Shown piece by piece: positions 37,680 to 45,230 of a stretch of DNA of 64,000 nucleotides (its first letter is position 1; every line of letters begins with the position of its first letter). The position numbers and the translations under genes were made by a program. This DNA comes from Paracoccaceae bacterium (lineage in GTDB: Bacteria > Pseudomonadota > Alphaproteobacteria > Rhodobacterales > Rhodobacteraceae), in assembly GCA_020622085.1 (NCBI GenBank), contig JAHRYM010000001.1, forward strand, positions 991,117 to 1,055,116, written 5' to 3'. Below the pieces are notes generated by a model. The model saw nothing but the letters and a program-made list of their open reading frames with translations. It had not been told where the DNA came from and searched no databases.

Positions 37680-38729
37680 GACTCCGTTGCACAAATCCCA
37701 TGATGGATTCATCTCGTGAATCCAGCGTGGTATCTGGGCGGCATGAGCAGACCCACGCCCCCCGCCTACAAAACCTGGAACTGGCCCGCATATGACAAGG
37801 CGCTGAAGCGCCGTGGCTCTCTGACGATCTGGTTCGATCCCGCCATGACCTGTGAGGCCGCGCCGACTGGCAAGCGCGGTCGCCAGCCCGCCTGCAGCGA
37901 CGCAGCGATCCAGACCTGCCTGACGATGAAGGTGCTGTTTGGCATGGCGCTGCGGCAAACGACCGGGTTCGTCGAGAGCCTGCTGCGCCTGACCGGCCTG
38001 GACTGGGCCGTGCCTGACTTCAGCACGCTGTCACGGCGCCAGAAGTCCCTGAAGGTCAACATCCCCTACCGCGGCTCGGACGGTCCGCTCCACCTGCTGG
38101 TCGACAGCACCGGGATCAAGGTCGAGGGCGAAGGGGAGTGGAACGCCCGCAAGCATGGCGGCACGAAACGGCGCGTCTGGCGGAAGATCCACATCGGGAT
38201 CGACGAGAAATCCCTGGAAATCCGGGCCGCAGAGTTCACCACCAGCGACGTGGGCGATGCGCCCATGCTGCCCGAACTTCTCGACCAGATACCATCCGAG
38301 CAGGAGATCGCCACCGTCACAGCCGATGGCGCTTTCGACACGCGCAAGTGCCATGACGCCATCGCTGCCCGTGGTGCAACCGCGATCATCCCGCCCCGCA
38401 AGAACGCCAAACCGTGGAAGCCCGACACCGCCGGGGCGGTCGCCCGCAACGAGATTCTGCGCACATCGAAGCGTGTCGGTCGAACCATCTGGCGACGATG
38501 GAGCGGCTATCACCGCCGAAGCCGCGTCGAGGCCAAGATGCACTGTGTGAAGCTGCTCGGCCAGCGCCTGACTGCCCGGGACTTCGACCGTCAGGTCGCA
38601 GAGTTCCAGGTTCGTGTCGCCGTTCTGAACGGCTTCACCGCGCTCGGAACACCCGTCACGGAAGCCGTAGGATAAGTCTGTCCGGGGAAAGGGGTAGTCC
38701 GGGCTGCAAATGATCTGTGCAACAGAGCC
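37680..38729 (+). mobile_element. IS5-family insertion sequence
   Basis: Imperfect terminal inverted repeats: left ...actccgttgcacaaatc; right (reverse complement) ggctctgttgcacagatc; one intact transposase between. Confidence 0.85.
37743..38675 (+). CDS. IS5-family transposase
   Basis: LLVDSTGIKVEGEGEWNARKHGGTKRRVWRKIHIGIDEKSLEIRA DDE transposase; VTADGAFDTRKCHDAIAARGATAIIPPRKNA; start MSRPTPPAYKTWNW. Confidence 0.93.
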   Translation: MSRPTPPAYKTWNWPAYDKALKRRGSLTIWFDPAMTCEAAPTGKRGRQPACSDAAIQTCLTMKVLFGMALRQTTGFVESLLRLTGLDWAVPDFSTLSRRQKSLKVNIPYRGSDGPLHLLVDSTGIKVEGEGEWNARKHGGTKRRVWRKIHIGIDEKSLEIRAAEFTTSDVGDAPMLPELLDQIPSEQEIATVTADGAFDTRKCHDAIAARGATAIIPPRKNAKPWKPDTAGAVARNEILRTSKRVGRTIWRRWSGYHRRSRVEAKMHCVKLLGQRLTARDFDRQVAEFQVRVAVLNGFTALGTPVTEAVG

Positions 38730-38955: not shown

Positions 38956-39045
38956 TGGCGGACAGAGAGGGATTCGAACCCTCGAGACGGTTCCCCGCCT
39001 ACACACTTTCCAGGCGTGCGCCTTCGACCACTCGGCCACCTGTCC
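38956..39045 (-). tRNA. tRNA-Ser(GGA)
   Basis: Minus strand ggacaggtggccgagtggtcgaaggcgcacgcctggaaagtgtgtaggcggggaaccgtctcgagggttcgaatccctctctgtccgcca: anticodon GGA, long variable arm, encoded CCA. Confidence 0.97.
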
Positions 39046-39742: not shown

Positions 39743-40068
39743 TCCTGCCTCCTTCGGCGATACGATGTCCGCGACATCAGGAAACTCCGGCCTCAGAACC
39801 CAGGAATGCGCGAGGGCAGGTGACACGGCGCCGGCCAGAGCCCCGATGCCCGATAGCCACCAGGGATGGTGCCGAAGGCAACCCCGAACGGGGAACCGTT
39901 CATCCACGGTGCGCCACCAATTCGGACGGGCCTTCGCTCTTGCAGAATCCTGCAAGATACCTTCTGGATGATCCGTGTTTGAGTGGTCTGCGTCAGGGGT
40001 TGCGTCAGGTGGAACGCAGGGAAAAGGGGCCAGCGGAATTTTCCGTGCTGAAATCCGTCCTTGCGGGG

Positions 40069-41127
40069 ATGGCAAGGCCGTCGGTAACGGCGGCCGGGAT
40101 TGCCCTTGGCACCGTCGCGGCGCTGTTTCTGGCCTACTGCCTCGTGTTCGGGGCATGGTTCACGGCATCAGATTTCTACCGCTATCTGATGTCCGATGAC
40201 CTGGACACCTACACCAACGTCACACACAAGGTGCTGAGCCGGCAGGGCAGCCACGATCCGGCGATCGTGGTGCTGGGCACCTCGGTCATGGTGCGCTGCG
40301 TCGCGGGCGAGGAGCCGCTGTCGGCGCTGGTGCAGGCCGATAGCGGTCGCAGGCTGGCCACCCATGATCTGGCGACCGATGCGCAGACAAGCTGGGAAAT
40401 GCTGGCACTGGTCGACCGGCTGCCGCCGAACGCGGATGGCGTTCTGGTGATCGGCCTGTCGCCGGGGCTTCTTGAATTCGGAAGCGGCGAAGGGCGCTGG
40501 CAATCGCTGCAAGGTCTGATCGATGCGCCCAAGCTGGGGTTCGTGTCGGCAGCGATGGATCGGGCGGCCGAGGACGCGGGCGCCATCGTGCCCCTTCGCA
40601 CCGGCATCCATGCGCTTGACAATGCCGCCTTCTTCCTTTCGCGGCGAAAAGACATCGTGAAGAACCTGCTCGGGGGCGGCAAGACCTATGGCGAGCCGCT
40701 TGATGCCTATTGGTACAAGAACGTGAACCGGCCTGATTTCTGGCAGTCCGAAATCGAAAAGGTGCCCGGGCAGGAGGCGCTTTACCGCCAGAACGCCGTT
40801 GCCAACTTCACCGTTCTGGAAAGCGTCGTGACGCTTGCACGCCAGAGCGGCGCAAAGGGCGTCGTGATCGTCGAGGCGCCGCTGAACCCCGGCTGGAATG
40901 CGGTGCCGCAGGCGGCGGACTATATCAGCCGCTACCGTCAGGATCTGGCGGACTTTGCGTCGCGCGTCGATGCAACTCTGGTTCGCACGACCGATGACGC
41001 GGGGCTGATCCAGTCCGATTTCGTGGATTACGAAGGACACTTGGGCAATGCGCCCGCGCGCGACCGCTGCACGGGCGCGCTGGCGCGGGGCATCGGGGCG
41101 GCGATGGGGGGCACACATGACGGATGA
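40069..41127 (+). CDS. SGNH-type/DltD-like membrane-anchored protein of Dlt-like operon
   Basis: N-terminal TM; AIVVLGTSVMVRC (G-x-S nucleophile-type motif); SDFVDYEGHLGNA C-terminal Asp/His-type motif; gene context. GTG alternative start at 40045. Confidence 0.7.
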   Translation: MARPSVTAAGIALGTVAALFLAYCLVFGAWFTASDFYRYLMSDDLDTYTNVTHKVLSRQGSHDPAIVVLGTSVMVRCVAGEEPLSALVQADSGRRLATHDLATDAQTSWEMLALVDRLPPNADGVLVIGLSPGLLEFGSGEGRWQSLQGLIDAPKLGFVSAAMDRAAEDAGAIVPLRTGIHALDNAAFFLSRRKDIVKNLLGGGKTYGEPLDAYWYKNVNRPDFWQSEIEKVPGQEALYRQNAVANFTVLESVVTLARQSGAKGVVIVEAPLNPGWNAVPQAADYISRYRQDLADFASRVDATLVRTTDDAGLIQSDFVDYEGHLGNAPARDRCTGALARGIGAAMGGTHDG

Positions 41128-41266
41128 TGCAGAAAAGCACAGCCGAGCCAGACGGTTCGGCGCCATTCTTCAGGGGCTGGTTCTGGGCGTTCTGGTCAGC
41201 ATCGCCATCGTCGAGCTATGGGCCCGGGCCGATGATGTGCGCCTGTTCCGTTACCAGAACTTCTGA
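41117..41266 (+). CDS. 49-aa single-TM microprotein with C-terminal FxYxxF acyl-shuttle-like motif (DltX-like)
   Basis: MTDDAEKHSRARRFGAILQGLVLGVLVSIAIVELWARADDVRLFRYQNF; basic N-terminus, one TM, C-terminal hexapeptide FRYQNF; 11-bp overlap with upstream gene. Confidence 0.8.
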   Translation: MTDDAEKHSRARRFGAILQGLVLGVLVSIAIVELWARADDVRLFRYQNF

Positions 41267-41281
41267 CCGGGGCCGATCCAG

Positions 41282-42469
41282 ATGATCCAGACAGGCACCT
41301 TCTGGCTTGTGATCTTCGGAACGGCGGCTGTCTACTGGCTGCTGCCGCGACCCTTGCGGCTGGGGTTTCTGGCGATCGCCTCCTATCTCTATCTTGCCTC
41401 GATCGACCCGGTCGGCGTCACTGTCCTGATCGGCTGGACCCTGCTGTTTTTCCATGTGGCACCGGCTGCGGTGCGGGATCGAAACCGGGGCGGCACGGTG
41501 CTGACCGGCCTTGTGCTGGCGATCCTGAGCTACCTGATCTGGCAGAAATACCTGCCCGCCTTCATGGACCTGATGGGCCGCGCCACGCCCGGTGTTGCGG
41601 TGGCGGTGCCGCTGGGCATCAGCTACTTCAGTTTCAAGCTGATCCATTACGCCGTGGAAACTGCGCGGGGCAACATCAGGGACCGCTCACTCTCGCGGTT
41701 CTTCTGCTACATCTTCCTGTTCCCGATCTTCACCGCCGGCCCGATCGAGCGGTTCGAGCATTTCAAGGCCAATATCGCCGACCGGTTCGTGGCGCAGACC
41801 GCCGCCGAAGGGCTGATCCGCATTGCGCACGGGCTGATCAAGATCTTCGTGATCGCGCATCTGGTGCAACCGTCGGACTTCGGCATGGGGGTTCCCGCCA
41901 GCCCGGCGGCGCTGCTGGAAGGGGCGGATACCGTCGCGCTCTGGCAGACCTGGGCCTTCCTGATCCTGACCTACCTTTACGCCTATCTGGATTTCAGCGC
42001 CTACAGCGACATCGCCATCGGCACGAGCCGCCTGTTCGGCATCCGCATCATGGAGAACTTCCGCCTGCCGGTGCTTGCGCAGAACATCACCGATTTCTGG
42101 AAACGCTGGCACATGACGCTGGCCGCCTGGTGCCAGAGCTACGTCTACATGCCGGTGCTGGCGCGCACCCGGATGCCCTATGCGGCCGTCTATGCGACCT
42201 TCATCGCCATGGGGCTCTGGCACGGGGCGACGGGGGGCTGGTTCTTGTGGGGGGTCTATCACGCCTCGGGCGTGGCCGGTTACACGATGTGGGCGCGGCG
42301 GATGCGGGGCCGGGGCTGGTGGCGCAAGGCGCAGGGCAGCGGCTGGAAATATCTGGGCATCCCGCTCACCTTCCTCTTCGTGTCGGGAAGCTATGCCTTT
42401 TCCTCGGCGCCCGCAGGGGCCTGGTCGGGGATCCGCATCTTCCTTCTGGCCTTCGGCATAAGGACGTGA
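41282..42469 (+). CDS. MBOAT family O-acyltransferase (DltB-like)
   Basis: YLDFSAYSDIAIGTSRLFGIRIMENFRLPVLAQNITDFWKRWHMTLAAWCQSYVYMP; MGLWHGATGGWFLWGVYHASG. Confidence 0.93.
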   Translation: MIQTGTFWLVIFGTAAVYWLLPRPLRLGFLAIASYLYLASIDPVGVTVLIGWTLLFFHVAPAAVRDRNRGGTVLTGLVLAILSYLIWQKYLPAFMDLMGRATPGVAVAVPLGISYFSFKLIHYAVETARGNIRDRSLSRFFCYIFLFPIFTAGPIERFEHFKANIADRFVAQTAAEGLIRIAHGLIKIFVIAHLVQPSDFGMGVPASPAALLEGADTVALWQTWAFLILTYLYAYLDFSAYSDIAIGTSRLFGIRIMENFRLPVLAQNITDFWKRWHMTLAAWCQSYVYMPVLARTRMPYAAVYATFIAMGLWHGATGGWFLWGVYHASGVAGYTMWARRMRGRGWWRKAQGSGWKYLGIPLTFLFVSGSYAFSSAPAGAWSGIRIFLLAFGIRT

Positions 42470-42473
42470 CGCC

Positions 42474-44075
42474 ATGAACCGGACACCTGCTGGGGAATGG
42501 CTGGGTGCGGGGTTTCACAACGCCTGCCAGCGCGTGCCGGATCGGATCGCGCTGTCCATTGATGGCCGGCGGATCAGCTATGCGGGCCTTGCCCCGATCG
42601 CGGGTGGCATTGCTGCGGCGCTTGGACCCGGCGAAGGGCAGGGGGGTGATGCCCCGGAACTGACCGCACTGCTCGCGTCACGGTCCGTCGCGGCCTATGC
42701 GGGGATTCTGGGGATCCTTTACACCAGCCATGGCTATGTGCCGCTGAACCCCGGCCATCCGGTCGGGCGGCTGGCCTATGTGCTGGCGCATTCCGGCGTG
42801 CGGCGGCTGGTGGTCGATACGGGCGGCGAGGCGGTGCTGGATGCGCTGCTGGCCGATTGCACCGCACCCTTGCGCATCGTTCTGGCCGACCGCGACGACG
42901 TGGCCGACATCGCCGCGCGCCATCCGCTGCACGATATCCGGGCGGGTCAACGCGTCGCCCCACTGCCACCGCCCCCCGCAGTGCCGATGGGCGAGCGGGT
43001 CGCCTATCTGCTTTACACTTCGGGCAGCACCGGGCACCCCAAGGGCGTGATGGTCACGCATGGAAATGTCGGGCATTTCCTTTGCGCGATGGAGGAGCGC
43101 TTCGATCTGACCGAGGCAGACCGTTTTTCACAGATGTTCGACCTGGGCTTCGATCTGTCGGTCTTCGATCTGTTCATGGCCTGGCGCGTGGGGGGCACGC
43201 TTTGCTGTCCCGGCGCGGGCGATCTGATGCTTCCGGCCGACTTCATCCGCCGCGAAAACCTGACCGTCTGGTTCTCGGTGCCGTCCGCCGCCGTCCTGCT
43301 GAACCGCCTGCGGCAGCTCGAGCCGGGCGCCTTTCCGACGCTTCGCCTGTCGCTGTTCTGCGGCGAGGCGTTCCCCGCCGCCGCCGCCGCGGCCTGGGCG
43401 GTGGCGGCACCGAACGCGGTTGTCGAAAACCTCTATGGCCCCACCGAACTGACGCTCGCCTGCACCGGCTACCGCATCGACGGAACCGAAGGGCAGGCGG
43501 GGGCAGTCCCGATCGGCCGGCCTTTCCCCGGCCTTGTCGCCAGGGTCGTCACCCCCGATCTGGCCGAGGTTGCGCCGGGAGGAGAGGGTGAGTTGATGGT
43601 ATCAGGCCCGCAGGTCGCCCCCGGTTACTGGCGCGATGCGGAAAAGACCGCCGCCGCCTTTGTCACCGACCCGGCCACCGGCGCGCGCGCCTATCTGACG
43701 GGCGATCTGGTGCAGCGCCCCGCCATGCCTGGCGATCCGATCCGCTACCTTGGCCGGCTGGACCACCAGATCAAGCTGCACGGCCACCGGATCGAACTGG
43801 GGGAAATCGAGGCGGCGCTGCGCGATGCGACCGGCGTCATCCATGTGGTGGCCGCCGGCCTGCCAGATGCCAGCGGCGCCATCACCGGCATCGCGGGCCT
43901 GATCGAGGCGCCGGAGGTGGATGTGTCCCGCGTCATCTCGCGGCTGTCCGACCGGCTTCCGGCGTATATGATGCCCAAGCGTATCGTTGCCGTTCCCCAA
44001 TTCCCGCTGACGCCGAATGGCAAGATCGACCGCAAGAGCCTTGTCGCCCTGTTGGCGGCCCCCGCAAGAAAGTGA
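42474..44075 (+). CDS. amino acid adenylation (DltA/NRPS A-domain-like) enzyme
   Basis: A3 LLYTSGSTGHPKGVMVTH; FDLSVFDLF; A5 NLYGPTELT; A7 YLTGDL; A8 GRLDHQIKLHGHRIELGEIEAAL; A10 PNGKIDRKSL. Confidence 0.93.
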   Translation: MNRTPAGEWLGAGFHNACQRVPDRIALSIDGRRISYAGLAPIAGGIAAALGPGEGQGGDAPELTALLASRSVAAYAGILGILYTSHGYVPLNPGHPVGRLAYVLAHSGVRRLVVDTGGEAVLDALLADCTAPLRIVLADRDDVADIAARHPLHDIRAGQRVAPLPPPPAVPMGERVAYLLYTSGSTGHPKGVMVTHGNVGHFLCAMEERFDLTEADRFSQMFDLGFDLSVFDLFMAWRVGGTLCCPGAGDLMLPADFIRRENLTVWFSVPSAAVLLNRLRQLEPGAFPTLRLSLFCGEAFPAAAAAAWAVAAPNAVVENLYGPTELTLACTGYRIDGTEGQAGAVPIGRPFPGLVARVVTPDLAEVAPGGEGELMVSGPQVAPGYWRDAEKTAAAFVTDPATGARAYLTGDLVQRPAMPGDPIRYLGRLDHQIKLHGHRIELGEIEAALRDATGVIHVVAAGLPDASGAITGIAGLIEAPEVDVSRVISRLSDRLPAYMMPKRIVAVPQFPLTPNGKIDRKSLVALLAAPARK

Positions 44076-44326
44076 GACCCGAAGTGACCGTTACCAGCAC
44101 CGATCTGCGCAGCTACATCACCGGCACGCTCAACTTCGACCTGCCCGGCGTCACGGACGCCGACCCGCTGTTCAGCTCTGGCCTTGTCGATTCCTTTGCG
44201 ATGATCGACCTGATCATGTTCCTTGAAACGAAGGGCGGCTTGCGCATCCCGCCTGCCGACATCACGCTTGACAACTTTGACACGCTCGACCGCATCGTTG
44301 CCTTCATGGCCCGCAATGCCCGCTAG
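44072..44326 (+). CDS. acyl/peptidyl carrier protein (DltC-like)
   Basis: 84 aa; LFSSGLVDSFAMIDLIMFLE phosphopantetheine Ser motif; overlaps neighbours on both sides. Confidence 0.9.
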   Translation: MRPEVTVTSTDLRSYITGTLNFDLPGVTDADPLFSSGLVDSFAMIDLIMFLETKGGLRIPPADITLDNFDTLDRIVAFMARNAR

Positions 44327-45230
44327 GCCGCAACCCGAAGGGATCGTCGTTCTGGGCTGCCCGCGGTCGGGCACGACGCTGCTTCGCCGGCTTCTGGATG
44401 CGCACCCGGCCATCGCCGCGCCGGGCGAAACCTACCTTCTGACCGCCGCCGCCCGTTTTCTGGAAGGCGAGACCATGGTCGACGGGCTGGAAGTGGGGGT
44501 GGTCAACGGCCTTGGTTTCCTGGGCTTTCCGCCCGATGAGGTGATCATCCGCCTGCGCGATTTTGCCTTTGCCTTCCGCCGCGAACATGCCGCCCGCGAA
44601 GGCAAGCGGCTGTGGCTGGAAAAGACTGCCGTCGATGCCTTCCATCTGGAGACGATCACCCGGCTTTGTGGCGACCATGTGCATTACCTTTGCGTTGCCC
44701 GGCACGGGCTCGACGTGGTCTGTTCGATGCAGGACTGGGTCGCCAAGTCGCAGGCCTATCCGTCCGAACTGCACCGCTTCATCCGCGAAACCCCCCGCCC
44801 GTTCGAGGCCTTCGCCCGCGCCTGGGTCGAGGCGACGGCGGCCATTGTCGCCTTTGCCGAAAGCAACCCGGACCGCGCCACGCTGGTCCGCTACGAAGAC
44901 CTTGTGGCCGACCCCGATGCGACGATGGCGCGCGTCCTGGCCGATGTTGGCGAAACCTTCGACCCGGCGGCCATTGGCCGGGCGCTGGCCAACCGCGATG
45001 CCAAGGGCTTCAGCGACTGGAAAACCTTTGCCTCGGCCGCCATCGAGGGCGCCAGCATCGGTCGCTACAAGCGCCATCTGTCTGCCGATACGGCAAGCGG
45101 TCTGGCAGGCATCACCGGCCCGTTGCTGGAACATCTGGGCTATGAGGTTCCGAACATGACCTCGACGCGCGACGCCGAGGCACTGCGACGCCGATACCTG
45201 GCCGGGCTGGCGTTGCAGGGCCTGCGATAG
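44316..45230 (+). CDS. sulfotransferase family protein
   Basis: IVVLGCPRSGTTLLRRLLDAHPAIAAPGET 5'-PSB loop; LVRYEDLVADPDATMARVLADVG. Confidence 0.88.
   Translation: MPARPQPEGIVVLGCPRSGTTLLRRLLDAHPAIAAPGETYLLTAAARFLEGETMVDGLEVGVVNGLGFLGFPPDEVIIRLRDFAFAFRREHAAREGKRLWLEKTAVDAFHLETITRLCGDHVHYLCVARHGLDVVCSMQDWVAKSQAYPSELHRFIRETPRPFEAFARAWVEATAAIVAFAESNPDRATLVRYEDLVADPDATMARVLADVGETFDPAAIGRALANRDAKGFSDWKTFASAAIEGASIGRYKRHLSADTASGLAGITGPLLEHLGYEVPNMTSTRDAEALRRRYLAGLALQGLR

Follow-up and report, generated by a model that had tools for sequence, protein, structure and literature searches.

A putative acyl-shuttle microprotein encoded in a Dlt-like MBOAT/SGNH operon of a Paracoccaceae bacterium

Described MBOAT/SGNH systems and the operon of the window

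An acyl-tyrosine formed on a C-terminal FxYxxF motif has been demonstrated for PatA, from which the group is handed to the serine of an SGNH protein (PMC12148441). An acyl-tyrosine on this motif is also described for DltX (PMC12148441). In PatA/PatB-type acyl-CoA-dependent pairs the motif is carried on two extra transmembrane (TM) helices fused to the MBOAT and there is no carrier protein; the same 2025 paper on Gram-negative MBOAT-SGNH acyltransferases states that non-Dlt pathways have neither a carrier protein nor a DltX-like microprotein (PMC12148441). For Dickeya and Pectobacterium, dlt genes have been described (PMC5541007).

The window, a 64,000-nucleotide stretch of a Paracoccaceae genome, contains an operon which shares an MBOAT, an SGNH protein and the FxYxxF motif with the PatA/PatB-type pairs but which, like its relatives and in contrast to the non-Dlt pathways above, has both a carrier protein and a microprotein, here called X. 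Its genes lie in the order SGNH, X, MBOAT, adenylation domain, carrier protein and sulfotransferase:

40045..41127, forward strand: predicted acyltransferase, SGNH/DltD-like and membrane-anchored (start codon GTG, TM helix at the N-terminus, invariant S80/D328/H332, DltD fold matches)
41117..41266, forward strand: X, 49-aa single-TM microprotein with a putative C-terminal acyl-shuttle motif, F44-R-Y46-Q-N-F49
41246..41263, forward strand: FRYQNF codons, the C-terminal hexapeptide of X, with the proposed acyl-accepting Tyr46 at 41252-41254
41282..42469, forward strand: MBOAT, DltB-like, 395 aa, without a C-terminal FxYxxF; H277 and H314 match the DltB active-site histidines
42474..44075, forward strand: NRPS/DltA-like protein with an amino-acid adenylation domain, whose pocket code is DLFFLCLLAK
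44072..44326, forward strand: carrier protein (PP-binding) with a DSF phosphopantetheine site
44316..45230, forward strand: sulfotransferase (Sulfotransfer_3), a conserved operon member found at seven loci

The MBOAT was recognised by PF03062 (83.4 bits) and scored 167.8 bits against the DltB equivalog model TIGR04091, below its cut-off of 375. Compared by sequence with solved structures in the PDB it matched DltB only, and the best fold match of its model was also DltB (TM 0.70/0.75). Residues H277 and H314 align with the DltB histidines of the FWxRWH and GxWHG motifs, the active-site residues of DltB being His289 and His336 (PMC11035591). The SGNH protein had no match to the Pfam DltD model PF04914. 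Its predicted structure (pLDDT 87.9) gave eleven top Foldseek matches which were all DltD, among them 6o93, 7dxm, 3bma and 6pfx; as the TM score reached only 0.46 (best E 3.5e-4), this likeness is a distant one. Comparison of the SGNH profile with DltD gave 75.9% over the Asp-His block, and Ser80, Asp328 and His332 were invariant among the SGNH proteins aligned. The adenylation domain scored 226.6 bits against the DltA model TIGR01734, below the cut-off of 559.85, and 317.9 bits against the amino-acid adenylation model TIGR01733, just above the cut-off of 317.4. The carrier protein retains the phosphopantetheine serine and fell below the cut-off of the DltC model.

Since every curated Dlt model was either unmatched or below its cut-off, the system is filed as a Dlt-like variant and not as Dlt; by these models X, the SGNH protein, the MBOAT and the adenylation domain are not classified as DltX, DltD, DltB and DltA.

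The gene for X

Re-reading of the sequence agreed with the earlier sequence-only reading in the position, length and FRYQNF end of a 49-aa ORF, with an ATG at 41117, a TGA stop at 41264-41266 and the product MTDDAEKHSRARRFGAILQGLVLGVLVSIAIVELWARADDVRLFRYQNF. The one TM helix proposed there corresponds to a single hydrophobic segment at residues 14-32 with a mean hydropathy of 2.44. The basic N-terminus also proposed holds in that the N-side is slightly the more basic, the asymmetry in the window protein being weak (4 vs 3 K/R). The first 11 nt of the gene overlap the end of the SGNH gene, whose stop is at 41125-41127, and 15 nt separate the gene from that of the MBOAT; an SGNH/X overlap is also found at five related loci (L002, L003, L006, L009 and L010).

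None of the models in the Pfam, NCBIfam and PHROGs libraries recognised X. The gene is tiny, easily overlooked by gene calling, and it will be missed in annotation as no model of the searched libraries recognises it. Its overlap, its small size and this lack of recognition by family models could suggest an artefact of overlapping reading frames. That explanation, however, has already been refuted by the conservation of X and is given practically no weight. Between the window and L002 (Rhodobacteraceae QY30) there are about 21.5 synonymous changes over 37.8 sites and 15.5 nonsynonymous changes over 109.2 sites, and the resulting dN/dS of 0.148 points to purifying selection. X is moreover conserved across phyla in differing overlap contexts and was recovered out of sample in a further genome, G650. 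In comparison with L003 (Defluviimonas) synonymous sites were saturated and the final six residues were identical. Nine aligned X orthologues have G15, Q19, G24, A30, F44, Y46 and F49 invariant, with the F, Y and F of the motif also kept in L099, L098 and L118, so that the motif proposed from the window alone is conserved among homologues.

The window together with the loci compared was taken as the background for FxYxxF ends. The window can encode 428 ORF products 35-60 aa long, of which 14 were TM-like and only one, X, ended in FxYxxF. In 1.17 Mb of the loci compared, such ends belonged only to MBOAT C-termini or to separate X/DltX proteins. A second FxYxxF end at L032 was that of a second fused MBOAT and no microprotein.

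The sequence-only reading had called X a DltX-type protein, noting that DltX can end in FIYNEF, which is true of Listeria DltX. The resemblance holds for the short single-TM form and the C-terminal FxYxxF; membership of the DltX family does not. The Pfam DltX model PF12459 had no match at E<=10 in either the window protein or the X family, comparison with Listeria DltX by hhalign gave a probability of 0.5% with no sequence homology detected beyond the motif, and the X profile found nothing beyond the motif among PDB profiles. Within Pseudomonadota, PF12459 gave only partial matches, none of which reached its cut-off.

Distribution of X and its relation to fused MBOATs

X adjoins a motif-less MBOAT in Rhodobacteraceae, Planctomycetota, Halieaceae and one further proteobacterial family; FxYxxF-ended microproteins beside MBOATs, a search for which had been suggested, thus do occur in proteobacteria (for example L002, L003, L008, L099, L098 and G650). 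The full gene order of the window is repeated in L002 and L003. The core is present in the Planctomycetota (L005, L006, L009 and L010, and L007 with X 3′ of the MBOAT gene), in Pseudohalioglobus (L008), in a member of the window's own family (L099) and in a distant alphaproteobacterium with the motif FIYAGF (L098). The first eight loci were found through similarity of the MBOAT and not of X, with L004, which ends at a contig edge, left out of the intact set; in each of the eight intact loci with an MBOAT identity of at least 44%, an X with the C-terminus F-x-Y-x-[NG]-F lies next to the MBOAT.

An out-of-sample test using an SGNH-profile search led to G650, in which the sole long open frame in the gap between the SGNH and MBOAT genes is MKNRVENGLVWVGRTLQFLGLYMGLVWAFMELYAAKSGAQVFRYAGF, ending VFRYAGF. 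The relatives are a sample and not a full enumeration, in which the system is rare: searches with X and with SGNH each gave two of 199 sampled genomes of the window's family, and the SGNH search gave two of 349 sampled Pseudomonadota genomes. Among weak X-profile matches only one, in G291, extended to the C-terminus and on reading was a real X. Matches with E of about 0.001-0.01 in G386, G114, G374, G235, G402 and G433 were partial, most within longer frames, and were not counted. SGNH-profile matches in G600 and G608 were part of fused-MBOAT systems.

The MBOAT next to X ends in AFGIRT without the motif, as had been read from the sequence. The accompanying statement, that in other systems the motif is fused to the MBOAT, is borne out by 29 of the 53 MBOATs compared, which have their own C-terminal FxYxxF and form one clade (SH-aLRT 96), and by the literature (PMC12148441). 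The unfused MBOATs comprise DltB (Listeria and enterobacterial), the clade of the window, three Syntrophomonadaceae and two Bacteroidota sequences. In the tree of 53 MBOATs, whose root is undefined, the window clade was not placed with DltB, though long branches make the deeper branching uncertain. Fused-MBOAT loci have no adjacent X, and the presence of X is tightly coupled to an MBOAT without a fused motif.

In four Syntrophomonadaceae loci the gene after an unfused MBOAT encodes a microprotein that ends in TFIYQNF (L011:7210-7323, L012:3672-3848, L013:7507-7629 and L014:5419-5541), and no carrier protein was detected by BLAST within these loci. In the tree the MBOATs of this family branch as the sister group of the fused clade and represent a possible intermediate. 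A gammaproteobacterial locus (L063:3787-8133) has the order MBOAT, microprotein, probable SGNH, carrier and ligase, its microprotein ending in a divergent motif variant, PVYQGY. In a Flavobacteriales locus a 40-aa TM ORF ending SYLYIDF (L018:8237-8359) lies about 1.1 kb downstream of an unfused MBOAT and is a candidate shuttle.

Proposed loading genes associated with the core

The pocket code DLFFLCLLAK is identical in the window, L002, L003 and the planctomycete L010, as well as in L004 up to its contig end. Listeria DltA has the code DLMVLCTVAK, with D, L, L, C, A and K common to both, and differs in having Met and Val at positions 239 and 278 where the window protein has Phe. This code is read as favouring a small amino acid.

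In sister operons a different ligase takes this place. The ligases of L005, L006, L007, L008 and L009 have TIGR03098 as their best model and the PLP decarboxylases of L005 and L008 have TIGR03099, in all cases below the curated cut-offs; a related decarboxylase was found in L009 (by position and start sequence) and in G650 (by BLAST). These two models represent the exosortase A-associated ligase/decarboxylase cassette, from which the window operon differs in having an NRPS-type adenylation domain and no decarboxylase. No papers dealing with this ligase cassette were found. The presence of a decarboxylase next to a carrier protein is reminiscent of BtrK-type decarboxylation of carrier-bound amino acids. 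Because one SGNH-X-MBOAT core is paired either with an NRPS-type adenylation domain or, in several relatives, with a different ligase and PLP decarboxylase, operons that share this core probably differ in the acyl group they export.

The sulfotransferase is common to the window, L002, L003, L005, L009, L098 and L118. It is conserved across phyla at 41-87% identity (window positions 44316-45230).

Comparison with dlt operons

The window operon shares with Dlt, the Gram-positive system that attaches D-alanine to teichoic acids, a separate single-TM FxYxxF microprotein, a motif-less DltB-like MBOAT, an SGNH protein of DltD fold, an adenylating enzyme and a carrier, all in one operon. It differs in that its parts lack a match to PF12459 or PF04914 and fall below the cut-offs of the LTA_dltB, DltA and DltC models, in its additional sulfotransferase and in its Gram-negative host, which is without the Gram-positive teichoic-acid acceptor. 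The microprotein gene also lies elsewhere, being at the head of dltXABCD in Gram-positives (Listeria dltX precedes dltA) and between the SGNH and MBOAT genes in the window.

This placement of X is shared with the enterobacterial dlt operons of the Dickeya/Pectobacterium type (L106-L110), which have the order DltD, X, DltB, DltA, DltC and an X of 39-40 aa ending FEYQKF or FEYQQF. A separate microprotein in a Gram-negative context, to which the sequence-only reading had drawn attention, is therefore present in the window but not unique to it. The enterobacterial operons differ from that of the window in having a separate MBOAT lineage, a DltD recognised by PF04914 and no sulfotransferase seen. 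Their DltB genes are located as follows:

L106:7909-9030, L107:4880-6001, L108:5841-6989, L109:5882-7003 and L110:5606-6727: enterobacterial DltB genes

It should also be noted that these DltB proteins have Asn (GAWNG) at the position of an expected catalytic histidine (GxWHG, DltB His336), with the other histidine (FWRRFH) kept. The Asn was read directly in L106 and L108, and the presence of His at this column in 48 of 53 MBOATs suggests that it applies to all five.

It could be argued that the window holds a horizontally acquired dlt operon that simply D-alanylates LPS or some other glycan, in which case X would still be a shuttle and the system would not be new. The pocket residues shared with Listeria DltA (including the Cys), the DltB and DltD fold matches and the 40-aa X between DltD and DltB in enterobacteria agree with this. 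However, it is regarded as unlikely, as all parts fall under the curated Dlt cut-offs, the genes are arranged differently and include a sulfotransferase, the MBOAT branches apart from the DltB of Listeria and of enterobacteria, Phe replaces Met and Val in the pocket, and sister operons have a different ligase, several of them with a PLP decarboxylase.

Proposed role of X

The X gene is real and conserved, as is its operon, and X is present where the MBOAT lacks a motif of its own. The preferred reading is that X shuttles acyl groups in a carrier-dependent system of envelope acylation which is built on MBOAT and SGNH proteins and works in the manner of Dlt, a reading to which a probability of roughly 0.8 is given; the carrier and adenylating enzyme within the X operon support it. 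Based on family and conserved motifs, the adenylation domain would activate a small amino acid and load it onto the carrier protein, from which the MBOAT would take the acyl group on the cytoplasmic side. By analogy with DltB/DltX and PatA, H314 and H277 of the MBOAT may then pass the group to Tyr46 in the C-terminal tail of X. This tail is expected to be periplasmic, with charge asymmetry across the X family and the same kind of analogy placing the C-terminus outside the cytoplasm. The acyl-tyrosine would swing to the membrane-anchored SGNH protein, whose Ser80 would accept the group for transfer to a periplasmic glycan or lipid. The sulfotransferase might, as a guess, modify the carrier-bound cargo or the acceptor. 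The structure predicted for an artificial X-MBOAT chain, made by reading through the TGA, left the motif at low confidence (pLDDT of 37-42) and so speaks neither for nor against a position of Tyr46 at the active site.

X might instead have a structural or assembly role in the MBOAT-SGNH complex, its aromatic tail docking in the MBOAT funnel and never being acylated. To plug the complex or hold it in position, a TM helix with an aromatic tail could be enough, and the TM residues Q19 and G24 are likewise invariant. This is considered improbable, more so than an acquired dlt operon, given that the FxYxxF tyrosine is the acylated and required residue in the fused homologue PatA (PMC12148441) and that the motif of X is tightly coupled to the lack of a fused one.

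On the shuttle reading, the window operon and its relatives predict amino-acyl esters, possibly sulfated or decarboxylated, on surface polymers of Gram-negative and planctomycete hosts. Whether they represent a broad, unrecognised class of carrier-dependent envelope acylation in Gram-negatives and Planctomycetota is judged an even question. In such a class, an SGNH-X-MBOAT core would move different acyl groups through one tyrosine shuttle and would be served by interchangeable loading cassettes, based either on an NRPS-type adenylation domain or on a ligase of another kind (in several cases accompanied by a PLP decarboxylase), and in many cases including a sulfotransferase.

Genomic surroundings of the operon

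Base composition gave no sign of foreign origin. Just upstream of the operon lie an IS-type transposase (37716-38675) and a tRNA-Ser (38956-39045), and upstream of the homologous operon in L002 there are IS-type ORFs, a tRNA-Ser and a tRNA-Val. As IS-type ORFs and a tRNA-Ser are found upstream in both, it is suspected that the operon may occupy an insertion hot spot.
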